Source: Verrucomicrobiota bacterium (GTDB lineage: Bacteria; Verrucomicrobiota; Verrucomicrobiia; Limisphaerales; SIBE01). From it: 37,060 nt of DNA. The stretch is taken from the NCBI GenBank assembly GCA_016871535.1, contig VHCZ01000032.1, forward strand, positions 1 through 37,060, given 5' to 3'. The notes under the pieces are model-generated. The model had not been told where the DNA came from. It did not search any database and saw only the letters and a list, made by a program, of their open reading frames with translations. A program made the position numbers and the translations under genes. Each line of letters begins with the position of its first letter. The first letter of the stretch is position 1. Shown piece after piece: positions 14,545 through 22,024 of the stretch.

Positions 14545-15948
14545 TTATCCCCGCGTATTATTCAGTTGCCGGCACCAACTGGCGACGGTGTCGGTCGAGG
14601 CTTCAAACGGATTCAGCAAATTGAGCGAGCTGATGCCTTCGGCGTCGATCACTTCCCAATCGACGAAATAGCGAATCGAGTGATTGCGGAGCTGCTGCAT
14701 GATGTGGGAACGAATCTGGGCGCGCGTGTTCGTCGGCGCCCGCCGCGTCGCTTCCGAGATGTCAGCGCTGGTGATCTCCCACGGCGGCGGCGTTTGCGCG
14801 AGCGCCAATCCCAGATTGCGCGCGGGATCGACGTGATGAAATTCCAGATCCTGCGCGCGCAGCCAGGGATCGACCCACGCGATCTTCTCCCGCTCGACGA
14901 ATTGTTGAAACAGCCAGCGTTTGGTGACCCAATCCACTTTCCCGACCAGCGCCTCCGGTTGCTTGCCCAGGGCAGTCAATGTTTCCTGCCAGACGTCCAG
15001 CACCACGTTCGTCTCTTCGTCGCGCCCGCTGAATTCGCTTCGGGCGGCTTCGTAAAACTGAAAGAGCAACTCCACGGCATTCTCGGTGCGGCCATCGGAC
15101 AGCGTCACGATCCAGGGGCCGTCCGGTTGGTGGGAGATGCCGCGAAAGCTCAGCACCGCGTCCGCCAGCACCATTTTGGGCATCCGATCCAATTCCAGGA
15201 GGTCGAGCACGAGCGAAGTCGTTCCGACTTTCAACATCAACGTCGTCGGCAGCACGCTCGTGTCGCCGTGCAGCAGATGCAGGCGGCGGTACTTGCGGGC
15301 GTCGGCGAGCGGTTCGTCGCGCGTGTTGATGATGGCGCGGTTGAATTGGACCCATTCGAAGAGATCGTTGTTGATGTAGTCCGCGCGCTGGCTGATTTGG
15401 AAATAACTGTCGGCGCCGGGCCGGATCAGGTCTCCGCGCAATTCGGCGCCTGGCGTGGAACCGACACGCCCCGCGCCGCCGTAAAGCTGCCGGAGCGTGA
15501 GAAACGCGAGCAACGACAAAACGTTCGCTTCGGTCAACGACGGAGCGGAACGCCGCACGAGGTAATTCTCGTGGCAGCCGAACGTGGCGCCGGAGTAGTG
15601 GTCGATGTTGTTCCGAATGAAGCTGACGTGATCGTGCAGCCGCAAATCCTTCAGCGCTTGAACCAAAATGGCATCGCCCGCGCGGTCGTAGCGCAGCAGA
15701 TCGATCAGAGACAGGCATTCGGGCGTGCAGTATTCCAGGTGCCCCATATCGACATAGGCCCGTCCGCCATTGAACAGGAATCCGCCGTTGCCCGCCGGTT
15801 CGTCCCAGTCGCGCTGGTGCATGTCGGGAAGGCCGAAGCGGGCGCGATCAAAAATCCAGTTCCGGACCCGCCCCACAGCGCTGGGCGGGCCGGACGGATC
15901 GTTGGTCAAACATCCGTATTCGGTCTCGAGACCTACGACGCGATTCAT
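14545..15948 (-). CDS. pafA: UBact/Pup--protein ligase PafA
   Basis: PafA attaches the C-terminal glutamate of a Pup-like modifier to lysines of target proteins, using ATP. At 467 residues it has typical length. The glutamine-synthetase-like start GLETEYG (Glu8, Glu10) is present, the catalytic Asp67 is in AYVDMGHLEYCTPE, and FIRNNIDHYSGATFGCHENYLV, INTRDEPLADARKYRRLHLLHGD and MLKVGTTSLVLDLLE follow. The C-terminal domain has VDWEVIDAEG...LNPFEA as in actinobacterial PafA. It lacks the long loop seen in the Dop paralogue at 17635-19155, which separates the two. The usual HPEY is HLEY here. Its ATG overlaps the prcA stop by 4 bases, so it is the last gene of a coupled operon. Confidence 0.93.
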   Translation of the reverse strand: MNRVVGLETEYGCLTNDPSGPPSAVGRVRNWIFDRARFGLPDMHQRDWDEPAGNGGFLFNGGRAYVDMGHLEYCTPECLSLIDLLRYDRAGDAILVQALKDLRLHDHVSFIRNNIDHYSGATFGCHENYLVRRSAPSLTEANVLSLLAFLTLRQLYGGAGRVGSTPGAELRGDLIRPGADSYFQISQRADYINNDLFEWVQFNRAIINTRDEPLADARKYRRLHLLHGDTSVLPTTLMLKVGTTSLVLDLLELDRMPKMVLADAVLSFRGISHQPDGPWIVTLSDGRTENAVELLFQFYEAARSEFSGRDEETNVVLDVWQETLTALGKQPEALVGKVDWVTKRWLFQQFVEREKIAWVDPWLRAQDLEFHHVDPARNLGLALAQTPPPWEITSADISEATRRAPTNTRAQIRSHIMQQLRNHSIRYFVDWEVIDAEGISSLNLLNPFEASTDTVASWCRQLNNTRG

Positions 15949-16685
15949 AATCCGATTTGCTCCAAAGGCAGCATTTCAAAGCGGGCCAGCCGCGGGCTTT
16001 TCCGCGCCAGCCAGCCGATCTCCACGATTTTTCCATTCACGGCGGCGCGCCAGCCGGCTCGGCGTTCCTCCTCGGAGGGAGGATTCTCCGTGAAAGACTT
16101 ATGCTCTAGCAAACACCACCAGACCTGAAGGAGCAAGTCCGCCAACTCGCGTCTCTCCCTTTTGCCGGCCGCGTTTTGGCTCAACCATTCCAGCGCGGCT
16201 TTCTCCGGCTCCGGAAGGCCCGCGGCCAAAATGATTCCTTGTGTTTGGTACTGAAATGCGCCGTCGAAATGGAGACGAAACAGCAAGTCGTGTCCCGGTT
16301 CGGCGCCGACTTCCACGAGCAGCAGTTCCACTAAAAAGGGCGCGCTGTAGATTTGCTCGAAGTGCGTCTTCAATTGCGGACTCAGCCCGAAGCTGACCAG
16401 CCGGCGCAAACTGACATCCTCCGGCGCGCGCGTGAACGCTTCCAGGTGCGCGGCGTCGATCGCCGCCTGGCGAATTTTCTCCATGTCCGCCGGATGCCCC
16501 AGGCCCGCCAGCGCGTGCCGGTCAAAGAGCTCGAAGACCTTCGAATTGCCGGTGCCGATGCCGAGGAGAAGAATGCCGTCCGGCAAACTCGCGGCAAACA
16601 CGGGAGAGCCGCTTTTGATCTGCTCGCGAACGTATTCGCGGCGGTTCTCAATGGCCTCCAGCCAACGATAAGGCTCTTCGGTCAT
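15945..16685 (-). CDS. prcA: Proteasome alpha subunit
   Basis: This 246-residue protein forms the outer, non-catalytic rings of the 20S core. The N-terminus EEPYRWLEAIENRREYVREQ matches the alpha-specific H0 helix preceding the first strand (SGSPVFAASLPDGILLLGIG). There is no N-terminal Thr exposed by processing. The Ntn-fold continues through KVFELFDRHALAGLGHPAD and PFLVELLLVEVGAE. It overlaps prcB upstream and pafA downstream by 4 bases each, giving ATGA junctions on both sides. Similarity to actinobacterial PrcA is clear in pattern but low in identity, as expected for a distant phylum. Confidence 0.9.
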   Translation of the reverse strand: MTEEPYRWLEAIENRREYVREQIKSGSPVFAASLPDGILLLGIGTGNSKVFELFDRHALAGLGHPADMEKIRQAAIDAAHLEAFTRAPEDVSLRRLVSFGLSPQLKTHFEQIYSAPFLVELLLVEVGAEPGHDLLFRLHFDGAFQYQTQGIILAAGLPEPEKAALEWLSQNAAGKRERRELADLLLQVWWCLLEHKSFTENPPSEEERRAGWRAAVNGKIVEIGWLARKSPRLARFEMLPLEQIGL

Positions 16686-17455
16686 GCGCGCAAAAATCCG
16701 GCTTGCTGCTCCGCTTCGATTGTTTCCACGCCGGCGGAACGGAGCACTTTGATGGTGGCGAACGTCCGCGTCTCCGGGTTCACGCCGCCGGTGGCGGAAT
16801 CGAATTCCGACGCGACCATGAGCAGGCGCAGGGCGAACTGCACGGCCTGGGGCAGTTGCATCTCCGAGGGCTTTGGCCCGCCGTGCCTCTCCTGAAAACT
16901 GAGAATGCTTCGGATGGTGCCGGAGCCGGAACCGGAAGCCGCGTAGCCGACCGCGTGAAACTGCGCGCCCAGCGGATCGTAGAAATAAATCTTGGCGCGA
17001 GCTGGAGCAGTCGCGTGGTCCAGACCGGCAAAGAGCGGCATGACGACGCCGATGCCTTGCATTGTCATGGGAAGGTTCTCGCGCAGCAGCCGCGCCAGCG
17101 CCCGGACTTTGGCGGGCAGACTGAGCGGCTGCAATTGGCTTCGCCGATAGTATTCGAAGGAAGTTTGCAGCACTCGCGCCATTTCGAACGCCGTGGCCGG
17201 CACTCCCGCGATGGCGAGAAGCGAGGTGGCATCGATCTCGATGACTTTGTCCACGCGATCGGTGACGATGATGTTCCCGGCAGTGGCCCTGCGATCGCCC
17301 GCCATCAAGATGCCGTCGGCGAAATGGAAGGCGAAGACAGTTGTGGCTTGAGTCTGAACGGGAGCGGAAAGAGAAACATCGCCTCGCAGCGGCGGCACCT
17401 GGCGGGCCGCGAGCAAGGAGAGAAAATCGCCGGCAATCGGCGCGGGATCGCTCAT
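16682..17455 (-). CDS. prcB: Proteasome beta subunit (catalytic)
   Basis: This is the 257-residue threonine protease subunit of the inner rings. A propeptide of 37 residues precedes TTVFAFHFADGILMAGDRR. With Thr38 taken as mature Thr1, Asp54 falls exactly at position 17 and Lys70 (TDRVDKVIEI) exactly at 33, completing the known catalytic set. GYAASGSGSGT and EFDSATGG provide the later conserved Ser and Asp residues. The residue before Thr1 is Ala instead of the usual Gly, so autoprocessing is predicted at Ala37-Thr38. Start and stop overlap the UBact stop and the prcA start by 4 bases each. Its position immediately after the modifier gene is typical of pup-prcB loci. Confidence 0.95.
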   Translation of the reverse strand: MSDPAPIAGDFLSLLAARQVPPLRGDVSLSAPVQTQATTVFAFHFADGILMAGDRRATAGNIIVTDRVDKVIEIDATSLLAIAGVPATAFEMARVLQTSFEYYRRSQLQPLSLPAKVRALARLLRENLPMTMQGIGVVMPLFAGLDHATAPARAKIYFYDPLGAQFHAVGYAASGSGSGTIRSILSFQERHGGPKPSEMQLPQAVQFALRLLMVASEFDSATGGVNPETRTFATIKVLRSAGVETIEAEQQAGFLRA

Positions 17456-17622
17456 TGGCCGGTGCGCTGTCGGTAGCGCTTGGCCTGATCAGGATCCACC
17501 TTGCGCATCCGCTTCAGAAGTTCTTCGACATTGGGTTTATCGACCTTGGGTGCGCTGGGGCCATCGCCGCCTCCACTCGGTCCAGGGGCGACGGGACGAG
17601 TTCTCTGAGCTTGGTCTGGCAT
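17452..17622 (-). CDS. ubact: UBact, Pup-like protein modifier (56 aa)
   Basis: I found this short gene by translating the dop-prcB gap. The reading frame of 56 codons starts at the ATG at 17622 and stops in TGA overlapping the prcB ATG. The N-terminal half is Gly/Pro-rich and disordered-looking (PVAPGPSGGGDGPSAPKV). The C-terminal half, VEELLKRMRKVDPDQAKRYR, ends in QRTGQ. This is the conserved tail of UBact, the Pup relative described in several Gram-negative phyla. The terminal residue is Gln56, so it should need deamidation to Glu by Dop before PafA can ligate it. It begins 12 bases after dop. The tail match and operon position together make the call secure. Confidence 0.95.
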   Translation of the reverse strand: MPDQAQRTRPVAPGPSGGGDGPSAPKVDKPNVEELLKRMRKVDPDQAKRYRQRTGQ

Positions 17623-17634
17623 AAAATCTACTCG

Positions 17635-19155
17635 TTAACTTGCCACGTTCCCGATGATTCGCAAATCATCCGGAGAATGGGCGGCGTCGATCACTCGAGC
17701 ATATTCCGCGACGTCGCCCGGTGCGAACAAATCCATCAGCGAGATTCTAATGGGACCATGCGTTCCTTGCAACGTAATGTGATCCCACTGGGCGGAGATC
17801 ACCGCCGAAGCGAATTTCTGGATGCACCGGCCCCGCACGTAGGCTCGCGTCGAAGGCGGATGCTTGACCGCGGCTCTCACTGTGCTCTCTTCCGGAACGC
17901 CCTGAAAACTGTGCGCGTGTTCCAGGCCGTAATACAAGCCTTCCGACCGGTCGAGGCGGTGATACTCCAAATCCAGACTCTGCAACCACGGATCATCGTC
18001 CGTAACTTTCTGAGCGGCCTGAAACTCGCGGACCAAAGCCAGCTTCGCGACCCAGTCCAACCGATCGCGGCATTTCATGAAGTCCGTTTCCAGATCGTCC
18101 AGCACGCGCTCCCAATCCTCAACAAGCTGCCGCTTTTCCGGGTTCGTGAGATCGCAGCCATCCTTCGCTGCCGTGAGATATTCCCGCTGAATGGACACGG
18201 CGGTTGCTTTCGCTCCACCGTCCAGCAATGTCTCCCAGCGAAACGCCGGATCGCGGGAAATCGTCGTCAGCCCGGAGAGTGGATCTGCCAGTTTGGGGTA
18301 GAGGCGCTTGGGATTCATCACCAACGCTTCCAGGGCCAGCGCCGTTGTTCCGACCTTCAAACGGGTGGCGAACGGCGACATGTTGGCGTCGCCCAAAATG
18401 ACGTGAAACCGCCGGAACGTTTTCGGATTCGCGTGCGGCTCGTCGCGGGTGTTGATGAGCGGACGCCGTTGCATGGTATCGACGCTCTGAAGTTCGCTGA
18501 AGAAATCGCTCCGTTGCGAGATTTGAAATCCTGGCGACAGAAATTTGTCTTCCGCTTCGACGGCAAACTTCCCCGTTCCGGCGAAAATCTGGCGCGTGAC
18601 CAGAAACGCCTGCATCCCGTGCGCGAGGATTTCCCAGGGCAACGCCCGAGGCAGAAGATAGTTCTCGTGGCAACCGTAGCTGTGTCCAAAGAAGTCCGTG
18701 TTGTTTTTGTAGAGCCGAACCGCGCGCTGGCGCTTCTCCGAGAGATGCTGGGCGCACGCCATCAGAATCCGCTCGCCGGCGCGGTCGTGCGCGACCAATT
18801 CGGCCAGGGTTCGGCATTCCGGCGTGCAATACTCCGGGTGCGCATGATCGTTGTAGAATCGCGCTCCGTTGCCGAGCACGAGATCGCTCTTGATTTCGAC
18901 GAAACTCAGTTCGCGCTCAGCGTCCTGGGCAAAGTATTTCGCCTCGTCGGTGTCCTGGCGAAGCTCGCGAACGCGAAAGCCCCGCATGTCCACGTGCGGA
19001 TCTTCGCTTTCATAATCCCAGCACATCCAGACGCCGGGTTCGGTGGCGCTGCGGACCAGGGCGATCGACTCGGCCACCACGTCCACTTCGCCGTCGTGCT
19101 CGGAGGTGATGCCGAACTCGGTCTCCAGTCCAAATTGGATGATGGGGGAGTTCAT
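17635..19155 (-). CDS. dop: Dop, deamidase/depupylase of the UBact modifier
   Basis: The 506-residue Dop deamidates Gln-ended modifiers and removes them from substrates. The fold matches PafA: GLETEFG at residues 9-15 and the catalytic Asp103 in FYNDHAHPEYCTPE. RLYKNNTDFFGHSYGCHENYLL, GFQISQRSDFF, INTRDEPHANPKTFRRFHVILGDANM and RLKVGTTALALEAL follow. A long insertion between WDYESEDPHVDMRGF and NGAR (about residues 50-92) corresponds to the Dop-loop and exceeds the actinobacterial version as I remember it. This loop and the HAHPEY motif separate Dop from PafA. Placement directly before the Gln-ended modifier fits a deamidase role. Confidence 0.93.
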   Translation of the reverse strand: MNSPIIQFGLETEFGITSEHDGEVDVVAESIALVRSATEPGVWMCWDYESEDPHVDMRGFRVRELRQDTDEAKYFAQDAERELSFVEIKSDLVLGNGARFYNDHAHPEYCTPECRTLAELVAHDRAGERILMACAQHLSEKRQRAVRLYKNNTDFFGHSYGCHENYLLPRALPWEILAHGMQAFLVTRQIFAGTGKFAVEAEDKFLSPGFQISQRSDFFSELQSVDTMQRRPLINTRDEPHANPKTFRRFHVILGDANMSPFATRLKVGTTALALEALVMNPKRLYPKLADPLSGLTTISRDPAFRWETLLDGGAKATAVSIQREYLTAAKDGCDLTNPEKRQLVEDWERVLDDLETDFMKCRDRLDWVAKLALVREFQAAQKVTDDDPWLQSLDLEYHRLDRSEGLYYGLEHAHSFQGVPEESTVRAAVKHPPSTRAYVRGRCIQKFASAVISAQWDHITLQGTHGPIRISLMDLFAPGDVAEYARVIDAAHSPDDLRIIGNVAS

Positions 19156-19238: not shown

Positions 19239-20948
19239 CTAGACGATGCCGCTGCCGAGCGACTCGCTTTTGCGCGGCCGCACCGGGCCCAGACGAACGA
19301 CATTGTCCGGGTCGAAATCAGTCAGTTTCAGCCAGTCCTCAGTCAGGTCAGTCGCCGGGAACAGGTCATTTTCCGCGTATTCCTTTTCCAGCGCTTGAAG
19401 CAAATCCTCCCGTGTCAAGGAGGTGGGCAACTTGGTCTCGATCGAGCGTTTGATGGCCAGACTTTTGGCGCGTTCCACGACGACGGCAATGATAGCGCCG
19501 CTGGCCAGGTCGCCGCGGTAAAGCATGTCTTTCTTCCCGCTGCGATAGACGACTTCCAGGAACTGATTCTCTGGGGTGCGATTGAACTGGGCTTGCGTCA
19601 CGGCCGCCGCCAGGTCGGTTTTCGGTTCAGCCAACGGCAAGCTCTCCCGCAAGTAGATTTCATAGATGCGTTGCGAACCGGCCAGGTCAGGCCGGCGCAC
19701 CTTGATTTTTCGATCGATGCGGCCCGGACGCAGGATGGCCGGATCGATCAAGTCGGCCCGATTCGATGCGAGGATCACGACGACATTCTGGAGCGGTTCG
19801 ATGCCGTCCATTTCCGTGCAAAACATCGGGACGAGCGTGCTGAGAATGCTGTGGTATCGTCCGGCGCGACGCGTGCCCAGAATCGACTCGGCTTCGTCAA
19901 TAAAGAGGAACGCCAGCGCCCCGTCGTTGGCGCGTTCCCGGCATTGCGAGAACAGGTCGCGAACTTGCCGCTCGGATTCGCCGACCCACATGTTCAGGAT
20001 TTCCGGCCCTTTGACGTGCAGAAAGAATTCGGGATGATCGACGCCGGTTTGAGCCTTCACTTGTTGACGGAGATTGTAGGCCGTTGCTTTTCCAAGCAAC
20101 GTCTTGCCGCAACCCGGCGGGCCGTAGAGCAGAAAACCCTTCGGCACAGAATGCTCGAAGCGTTTGAAAAGGTCGCGGTGCAGGAACGGCAGTTCGATGG
20201 TGTCGCGGATCGCTTGCACCGCTTCTTCCTGACCGCCAATCGCGCTCCACGGCAATTCGGTCACCGTTTCGAGGGAACGCTTGACGCGCTTGCCGACGCC
20301 GACCACTTCCAGCGCGACGCGCTGGTTCCCGTCGAGACGCACTTCCAAACCCGGACGCAGTTTTTCTTTGGCCAGCAATGCCGAGCGTTGGAGCACCAGC
20401 GGCATCAAGCCGCTTTCCTGGCCGATCCGCAAGCGTCCGTCCGAGAGCAATTCGTCCACGCGGACGATCGGGCCGTTGCGATCGAACCCCAGTCCCTGGA
20501 CGACGGCGAATGCCTCGTTGCAGAGCACGCGCTGGCCGAGCTGCAAACTGGAAAGCGGGATTTGCGGATCGACGCGGCAGACGTAGTCCGTGGCTCCGAT
20601 GCAGACGTGCGCTTTGTCCGGTTCCACCGGCATGAGGAACGTGCCGACGCGATAGGCCGGGGACCGCAGTTTCTCCACGATCGCATCCAGTTTCTGGATC
20701 GCTTCCTGGGCTTGATAATTGGTTTCTTCGATGGAGGAGACGCGTTCCCGCAGATACACCATGTCGAGGATCGACGGATGACGGGGCGGGAGTTTGCTGA
20801 TGATGAGATCGACGATTTGCAGCGTGGAGAGCTTTTCCATCTCCTCGTGGGAAAGCAAATCGCTCAACGGGCCTTGGCCTTCGGTCGCGCCACCCGGAAG
20901 TTTGTTCAGCGCGGACGGTGGAACTGACTTCTTTTTAGGCTCAGCCAT
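19239..20948 (-). CDS. arc: Proteasomal ATPase ARC/Mpa
   Basis: This 569-residue hexameric AAA unfoldase should recognise UBact-tagged proteins and thread them into the 20S core. A coiled coil (about residues 62-95) captures Pup-type modifiers in relatives. Tandem OB-type domains follow (about 98-225). The AAA module has Walker A GPPGCGKT (276-283), Walker B FLFIDE (347-352) and RPGRID with arginine fingers (407-412). The pore loop reads KGPEILNMWVGESE. The N-terminus has a basic, Pro-rich extension. The C-terminus ends GSGIV, without the penultimate Tyr used by mycobacterial Mpa to dock on the proteasome. It is separated from dop by 83 bases and from the upstream regulator by 56. Confidence 0.93.
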   Translation of the reverse strand: MAEPKKKSVPPSALNKLPGGATEGQGPLSDLLSHEEMEKLSTLQIVDLIISKLPPRHPSILDMVYLRERVSSIEETNYQAQEAIQKLDAIVEKLRSPAYRVGTFLMPVEPDKAHVCIGATDYVCRVDPQIPLSSLQLGQRVLCNEAFAVVQGLGFDRNGPIVRVDELLSDGRLRIGQESGLMPLVLQRSALLAKEKLRPGLEVRLDGNQRVALEVVGVGKRVKRSLETVTELPWSAIGGQEEAVQAIRDTIELPFLHRDLFKRFEHSVPKGFLLYGPPGCGKTLLGKATAYNLRQQVKAQTGVDHPEFFLHVKGPEILNMWVGESERQVRDLFSQCRERANDGALAFLFIDEAESILGTRRAGRYHSILSTLVPMFCTEMDGIEPLQNVVVILASNRADLIDPAILRPGRIDRKIKVRRPDLAGSQRIYEIYLRESLPLAEPKTDLAAAVTQAQFNRTPENQFLEVVYRSGKKDMLYRGDLASGAIIAVVVERAKSLAIKRSIETKLPTSLTREDLLQALEKEYAENDLFPATDLTEDWLKLTDFDPDNVVRLGPVRPRKSESLGSGIV

Positions 20949-21004: not shown

Positions 21005-22024
21005 CTATTTTTTGCGCGCAGGACGCAACGGGCGATTCCGCAAGATGCGCAGCGCGGCCTGCCGCACCGACGCCGCGAGCTCCGGCGGCTCGATTACGAC
21101 GGCCTGTCCGCCCCAGGCCAGAATCCACCGCTGGACTTCCACCAGGCTGGAAAGTTTCAGAGACAATTCGACGCCGCCCTCGCTCAGCTCCCGCAACCTC
21201 TGCGAGGGATGCCATTTCTTTTCACGAATATAATCGGCCACGAGTTCGCTGAATTGAATTCGAATTTGGTATTCGCCGCTTCCCGCGTGGATGCCAAAAC
21301 TGTCCTTCAACCTTCGCTCGAGCGAGAATCTCGCCGGGCGAACGAATCGCTGGCCGGTTCTCTCCACGGCCTTGATGCGTGCCGGAACGAACGTGCGGAT
21401 GTCGCGGCGGAGATGGTCGAACCCGAACAGGAACCACTCGCCGTTGACGTTGGCGAGATGATACGGATCCACGGTTCGGCGCTCCGTGTTCTTCAGGCCC
21501 GGCTTCCGATACGTCAGCACGACCCGTTCGCGTTGCGACGTGGCCTTGGCCAGCGCATCAAAGATCTCAAGGTTAAGAATCGGCTCGGCGCTCGTCCGAA
21601 ACGAAATCGTCTGCTCCCAGTCCGCCAGATTCAGCGAGACGGTTTCCGGCAGCGAAGCCGCCATTTTCTTAAACGCGCTCAGGAGCGGTTTCTCGAAACT
21701 TGTTCCGCGATACTGCTGCAGCGCTTTCTCAGCGACCAGAAGAGCAAAAAGCTCGCCTTCCGTGATCTGCAACGTTGGGAAAGATCGAACCTCCTGCGTG
21801 TAGTAGTATCCATGCCGGATGGCGTCGTACGCCAGCGGCAATTCCAGCCGTTCTCGCATGAACTCCAGGTCCCGTTGGGCGGTCTTTGAGCTGATCTCCA
21901 GCTCCAGGGAGAGCGTTTGCGTGTTGGGAAAAGTTCCTTCCTGAATCGCCTGGTGGATGCGAAGCATTCTCTCCAACGGCGCGCGGTAAAGGGGCTCCGT
22001 TCTGGCTCGCTCCGGTTTCGTCAT
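21005..22024 (-). CDS. WYL-domain transcriptional regulator (PafB/PafC-like)
   Basis: The 339-residue protein has an N-terminal winged helix-turn-helix (RMLRIHQAIQEGTFPNTQTL to RDLEFMRERLELPLAY, about residues 18-70). A WYL domain follows (about 150-230), with RVVLTYRKPGL, RRTVDPYHLANVNGEWFLFGFD and RRDIRTFVPARIKAVE, and then a C-terminal WCX-like extension. In actinobacteria PafB and PafC, also WYL proteins, lie beside pafA and control DNA-damage genes. A single WYL gene at the head of this operon suggests a related role, but that is inference. It starts 235 bases after the rho 3' end, so the operon promoter probably lies at 22025-22260. Confidence 0.82.
   Translation of the reverse strand: MTKPERARTEPLYRAPLERMLRIHQAIQEGTFPNTQTLSLELEISSKTAQRDLEFMRERLELPLAYDAIRHGYYYTQEVRSFPTLQITEGELFALLVAEKALQQYRGTSFEKPLLSAFKKMAASLPETVSLNLADWEQTISFRTSAEPILNLEIFDALAKATSQRERVVLTYRKPGLKNTERRTVDPYHLANVNGEWFLFGFDHLRRDIRTFVPARIKAVERTGQRFVRPARFSLERRLKDSFGIHAGSGEYQIRIQFSELVADYIREKKWHPSQRLRELSEGGVELSLKLSSLVEVQRWILAWGGQAVVIEPPELAASVRQAALRILRNRPLRPARKK

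Follow-up and report, generated by a model that had tools for sequence, protein, structure and literature searches.

A Gln-ending UBact gene in a complete proteasome operon of an uncultured Verrucomicrobia lineage

A short open reading frame (ORF) between dop and prcB was confirmed as a real UBact gene, far beyond what chance would produce. UBact is a known bacterial protein tag with a role like that of ubiquitin; here it very probably serves a Pup-like proteasome system of the Gram-negative type with a Dop–PafA–Mpa–20S scheme. In the window (the whole stretch of DNA analyzed, 37,060 nucleotides), the gene is part of a complete minus-strand operon, mpa-dop-UBact-prcB-prcA-pafA. The features of the region are as follows.

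21005..22024, minus strand: WYL/WCX-domain regulator, upstream of mpa
19239..20948, minus strand: mpa/ARC-like proteasomal AAA ATPase, 569 amino acids; C-terminus ...LGSGIV, GQYL motif absent
17635..19155, minus strand: dop, depupylase/deamidase homologue, 506 amino acids; Dop-loop motif WDYESEDPHVDMRGF, Tyr101, Asp103, His104, His163
17452..17622, minus strand: UBact, 56 amino acids; Gly-rich N-terminal half, tail RYRQRTGQ, stop codon TGA overlapping the prcB start (ATGA)
16682..17455, minus strand: prcB, 20S proteasome beta subunit; in alignments, Thr38 falls on residue 1 of mature beta chains of known structure
15945..16685, minus strand: prcA, divergent 20S proteasome alpha subunit; TIGR03691 60 bits, below the cut-off
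14545..15948, minus strand: pafA, putative UBact ligase, 467 amino acids; no Dop-loop, divergent alpha-loop, placed in the UBact-ligase clade

The UBact ORF runs from an ATG at 17622 to the stop codon ending at 17452 and encodes the protein MPDQAQRTRPVAPGPSGGGDGPSAPKVDKPNVEELLKRMRKVDPDQAKRYRQRTGQ. The 56-residue, Gln-ending gene of the original prediction, which gave no strand, was thus recovered exactly; the plus-strand frame at 17452-17622 is unrelated to UBact. The gap from the dop stop codon (17635) to the prcB start (17455) measures 179 bases rather than the 183 first counted, and UBact starts 12 bases past the dop stop and overlaps prcB by 4 bases. The gene had been called hidden, which holds in a relative sense: the ORF is shorter than gene callers usually require, yet the NCBI annotation model picks it up. 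Its identity was borne out by a match to the Pfam family PF20513 (UBact; residues 15-56, E 7.3e-24) and to the NCBIfam UBact equivalog NF033388 (83.7 bits; curated cut-offs 27.8 for Pfam and 35 for NCBIfam). The sequence RYRQRTG is followed by Gln and then by the stop codon, and Dop/PafA-type enzymes as well as a 20S proteasome are encoded alongside. UBact is present in a single copy, no second one being found in the genome, and no solved structure is similar to it by sequence.

The codon substitution pattern was analyzed at two evolutionary distances. Compared with the same-genus locus L021, the whole gene differs by 21 synonymous changes and one non-synonymous change (dS 0.514, dN 0.008). 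In the last 40 codons, 98 distinct relatives showed 442, 322, and 2125 differences at codon positions 1, 2, and 3, respectively. This purifying selection shows that UBact is translated and constrained. A chance ORF or non-coding spacer between dop and prcB would fit the shortness of the frame (56 amino acids) and the lack of a strong ribosome-binding site upstream by eye; with family-model E-values of about 1e-24, strict conservation across phyla, and strong purifying selection, this explanation has a negligible probability, and we consider it ruled out by the family models and the substitution pattern. The operon logic, the similar length, and the terminal Gln would also suit a Pup of the actinobacterial type. 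However, the tail reads RTGQ and not GGQ as in Pup, and UBact is the only Pfam and NCBIfam match at E up to 0.1, with no Pup-family match in that range. An identification as Pup is therefore very unlikely and was rejected.

UBact has been in the literature since 2017 (Lehmann et al., PMID 28087277, as cited in PMC12751074, PMC12441361, and PMC5751360), and both UBact and its operon are already known. The gene reported here has the same size, Gly-rich N-terminal part, and RYRQRTG[Q/E] tail as the described family (PF20513; NF033388) and the same neighbors (dop, prcB, prcA, pafA, and the Mpa/ARC ATPase). No feature distinguishes it from that family, of which it is a further species' member. What is gained is the confirmation of a complete UBact-proteasome operon for an uncultured Verrucomicrobia lineage and the observation that the Gln/Glu end was often interchanged in evolution. 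UBact conjugation has been little studied relative to that of Pup, and UBact goes unmentioned in a review of bacterial proteasomes from 2025 (PMC12288473).

The tail had been proposed as diagnostic of UBact and an alignment with other phyla as a check. In 92 distinct relatives, RYRQRTG[Q/E] was invariant, with homologues of the tail in Verrucomicrobiota, Gemmatimonadota, Latescibacterota, and a metagenome-assembled genome (MAG) labeled Omnitrophota, which supports the diagnostic value. All intact tails of these 92 proteins end in RTGQ (61) or RTGE (31); Gln thus predominates, and a terminal Gln is no oddity in the UBact family. A tree built from 87 Dop sequences requires 11 changes of the Gln/Glu state, at least 10 of which are forced by well-supported branches, compared with approximately 27 changes when the labels were shuffled. 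Gln and Glu are therefore inherited within clades, yet have been interchanged many times. The switch is a single first-position base (CAA/GAA), and the ATGA overlap is compatible with either codon, as seen for 51 Gln-ending and 11 Glu-ending proteins. The loci L087 (Glu end) and L134 (Gln end) encode an otherwise near-identical UBact pair; such pairs offer matched natural material on whether deamidation matters.

In one relative, at G516:C74:96987-97133 on the minus strand (L166/L188), UBact reads ...KVDPAAARIT-stop, so that the conserved DQAKRYRQRTGQ tail is gone, while dop, prcB, and pafA-type genes are still present. A deletion that extends into a GC-rich palindromic repeat, located between UBact and prcB in the sister species, apparently removed the tail; because only one MAG shows it, this may be an assembly error. 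Several related species (L047, L078, L129, and L130) carry a palindromic element (GCGGACGCCCACGTCCGCAG...CTGCGGACGTGGGCGTCCGCGCTCC) in the interval from UBact to prcB, and in some of these loci the same word was found again elsewhere.

The relatives keep UBact beside prcB: of 80 loci in named genomes, L060 is the sole one in which prcB does not follow; dop is directly upstream of UBact in most loci and pafA downstream, whereas both are sited elsewhere in the genome in some lineages. Dop and PafA homologues have been reported as sporadic in Verrucomicrobia (PMC7947786). Within the order (196 genomes sampled), PF03136 (Dop/PafA) was present in all 69 UBact-positive genomes and in 11 of the 127 UBact-negative ones. 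It also occurred in 27 of 27 further UBact-bearing genomes, 24 of which carry two copies. Dop without UBact was seemingly present in two genomes, but gaps in the assemblies account for both equally well or better: the G023 contig stops immediately upstream of prcB, and G033 lacks prcB as well. Long, divergent gene pairs of the Pup-ligase family, adjacent to each other and with open frames of about 550-990 amino acids, were found at G573:C4, G567:C198, G557:C136, and G047:C193 (L169, L170). The genomes carrying them belong to the order and are mostly UBact-negative, and the pairs probably represent a different system.

The dop product is closest to the solved Dop structures 4b0r and 5lrt (E about 6e-96), and its Asp103 aligns with Asp94 of Dop from A. 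cellulolyticus. Tyr101, Asp103, His104, His106, His163, and Arg237 are kept in all 117 distinct Dop homologues. The Dop-loop motif is found in 134 of 140 Dop sequences and in none of 62 PafA sequences; the window's Dop has this loop together with the catalytic Asp, Tyr, and His residues. TIGR03688 is still its best match, although the score of 413 bits does not reach the cut-off of 492.3. At the catalytic positions checked, no difference was seen between Dop of Gln-ending and Glu-ending lineages, which at these positions rules out a distinct active site in the former.

The significance of the terminal Gln can be judged by comparison with Pup, the deamidation of which is already known. In Actinobacteria with a Gln-ending Pup, Dop turns the terminal Gln into Glu, a required step, and PafA links the Glu side chain to a lysine (PMC8223512, PMC12288473). 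Chemically, this deamidation and tag removal are equivalent, and one enzyme carries out both (PMC8223512, PMC8599861). By analogy, UBact would be produced in the Gln form, Dop would hydrolyze the amide in the side chain of its last residue, converting Gln to Glu, and PafA would phosphorylate the gamma-carboxylate and couple UBact to a target lysine. The tagged target would then be passed to the Mpa-20S proteasome, or Dop would strip the tag. In the Glu-encoding relatives, the first step would be unnecessary and Dop would presumably serve for tag removal only. Judging from PafA chemistry and the precedent set by PupQ, the likeliest course is that Dop deamidates UBact-Q ahead of ligation, and the step would presumably be obligatory, as originally predicted. 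The need of PafA for a Glu side-chain carboxylate, the neighboring dop gene with its intact Dop-loop and catalytic residues, and the Pup precedent are consistent with that prediction.

Dop is retained in Glu-ending relatives as well; this implies another role, presumably tag removal, and the presence of Dop alone is no argument for deamidation. It is conceivable that the Gln form is handled by another amidase, by spontaneous deamidation, or by the ligase, leaving tag removal as the only conserved role of Dop. The equal conservation of Dop and its checked active-site residues in lineages needing no deamidation would accord with this, as would a ligase alpha-loop unlike that of actinobacterial PafA, since substrate rules could differ. 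We nevertheless regard such a division of labor as improbable: genomes with a Gln-ending UBact have genes of the Dop/PafA family, two of them in almost every case (one in a few fragmentary assemblies), deamidation and depupylation are the same Dop chemistry (PMC8223512), and PafA ligation, as established for Pup, requires a carboxylate to phosphorylate. Deamidation by Dop thus remains the preferred reading. A more speculative idea, which we hold to be rather doubtful, is that the Gln/Glu end forms an evolutionary switch between a Dop-activated (Gln) and a ligation-ready (Glu) tag, with Dop kept for tag removal; if so, the switching would determine how strongly tagging relies on Dop.

The assignment of the pafA product is ambiguous by score, since it reached 275.5 bits with TIGR03686 (PafA; cut-off 551.3) and nearly the same, 274.0 bits, with the Dop model TIGR03688. 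The Dop-loop is absent from this protein and from all 62 homologues. In a first tree with one long-branched actinobacterial PafA reference, the UBact ligase stood apart, but a PafA clade was not rejected in the constrained test with this reference (p-AU 0.336). Adding a second PafA reference placed UBact-PafA on the same side of a branch as actinobacterial PafA (support 57/7). The references comprised partial sequences from PDB alignments and two actinobacterial records. Orthology with actinobacterial PafA is thus compatible with the trees, albeit weakly supported, and an independent origin of the UBact ligase was not upheld. In the alpha-loop (ADYINNDLFEWVQFNRAIINTRDE), which shows good conservation across the UBact lineage, Val and Gln occupy the positions of two threonines (T183 and T184 in PMC7947786) that are conserved in actinobacterial PafA and Dop and missing from the UBact ligase. 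When these threonines were replaced by Ala, the enzyme examined there ligated more slowly (PMC7947786).

Overall, the window's system shares with the actinobacterial Pup-proteasome the operon logic, the Dop-loop in Dop, the catalytic Asp in both enzymes, the alternation of terminal Gln and Glu, and the predicted deamidation. In contrast, Dop, PafA, PrcA, PrcB, and Mpa all score under their actinobacterial equivalog cut-offs, and the Mpa homologue differs from actinobacterial Mpa in lacking the GQYL tail, the gate-opening motif known from mycobacteria (PMC12288473). In most Mpa/ARC homologues, the last two residues are instead small and hydrophobic (as in GIV, GVV, or AII).

Six loci with records titled Akkermansia muciniphila, Klebsiella pneumoniae, or Bacteroidetes (L044, L047, L053, L064, L072, and L102) group with Verrucomicrobiota UBact loci, and their titles are probably wrong. 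A gene for a WYL-domain regulator adjoins mpa in eight closely related loci, which is an association only. PafB and PafC are WYL regulators. In Actinobacteria, pafB and pafC share an operon with pafA (PMC5656591).
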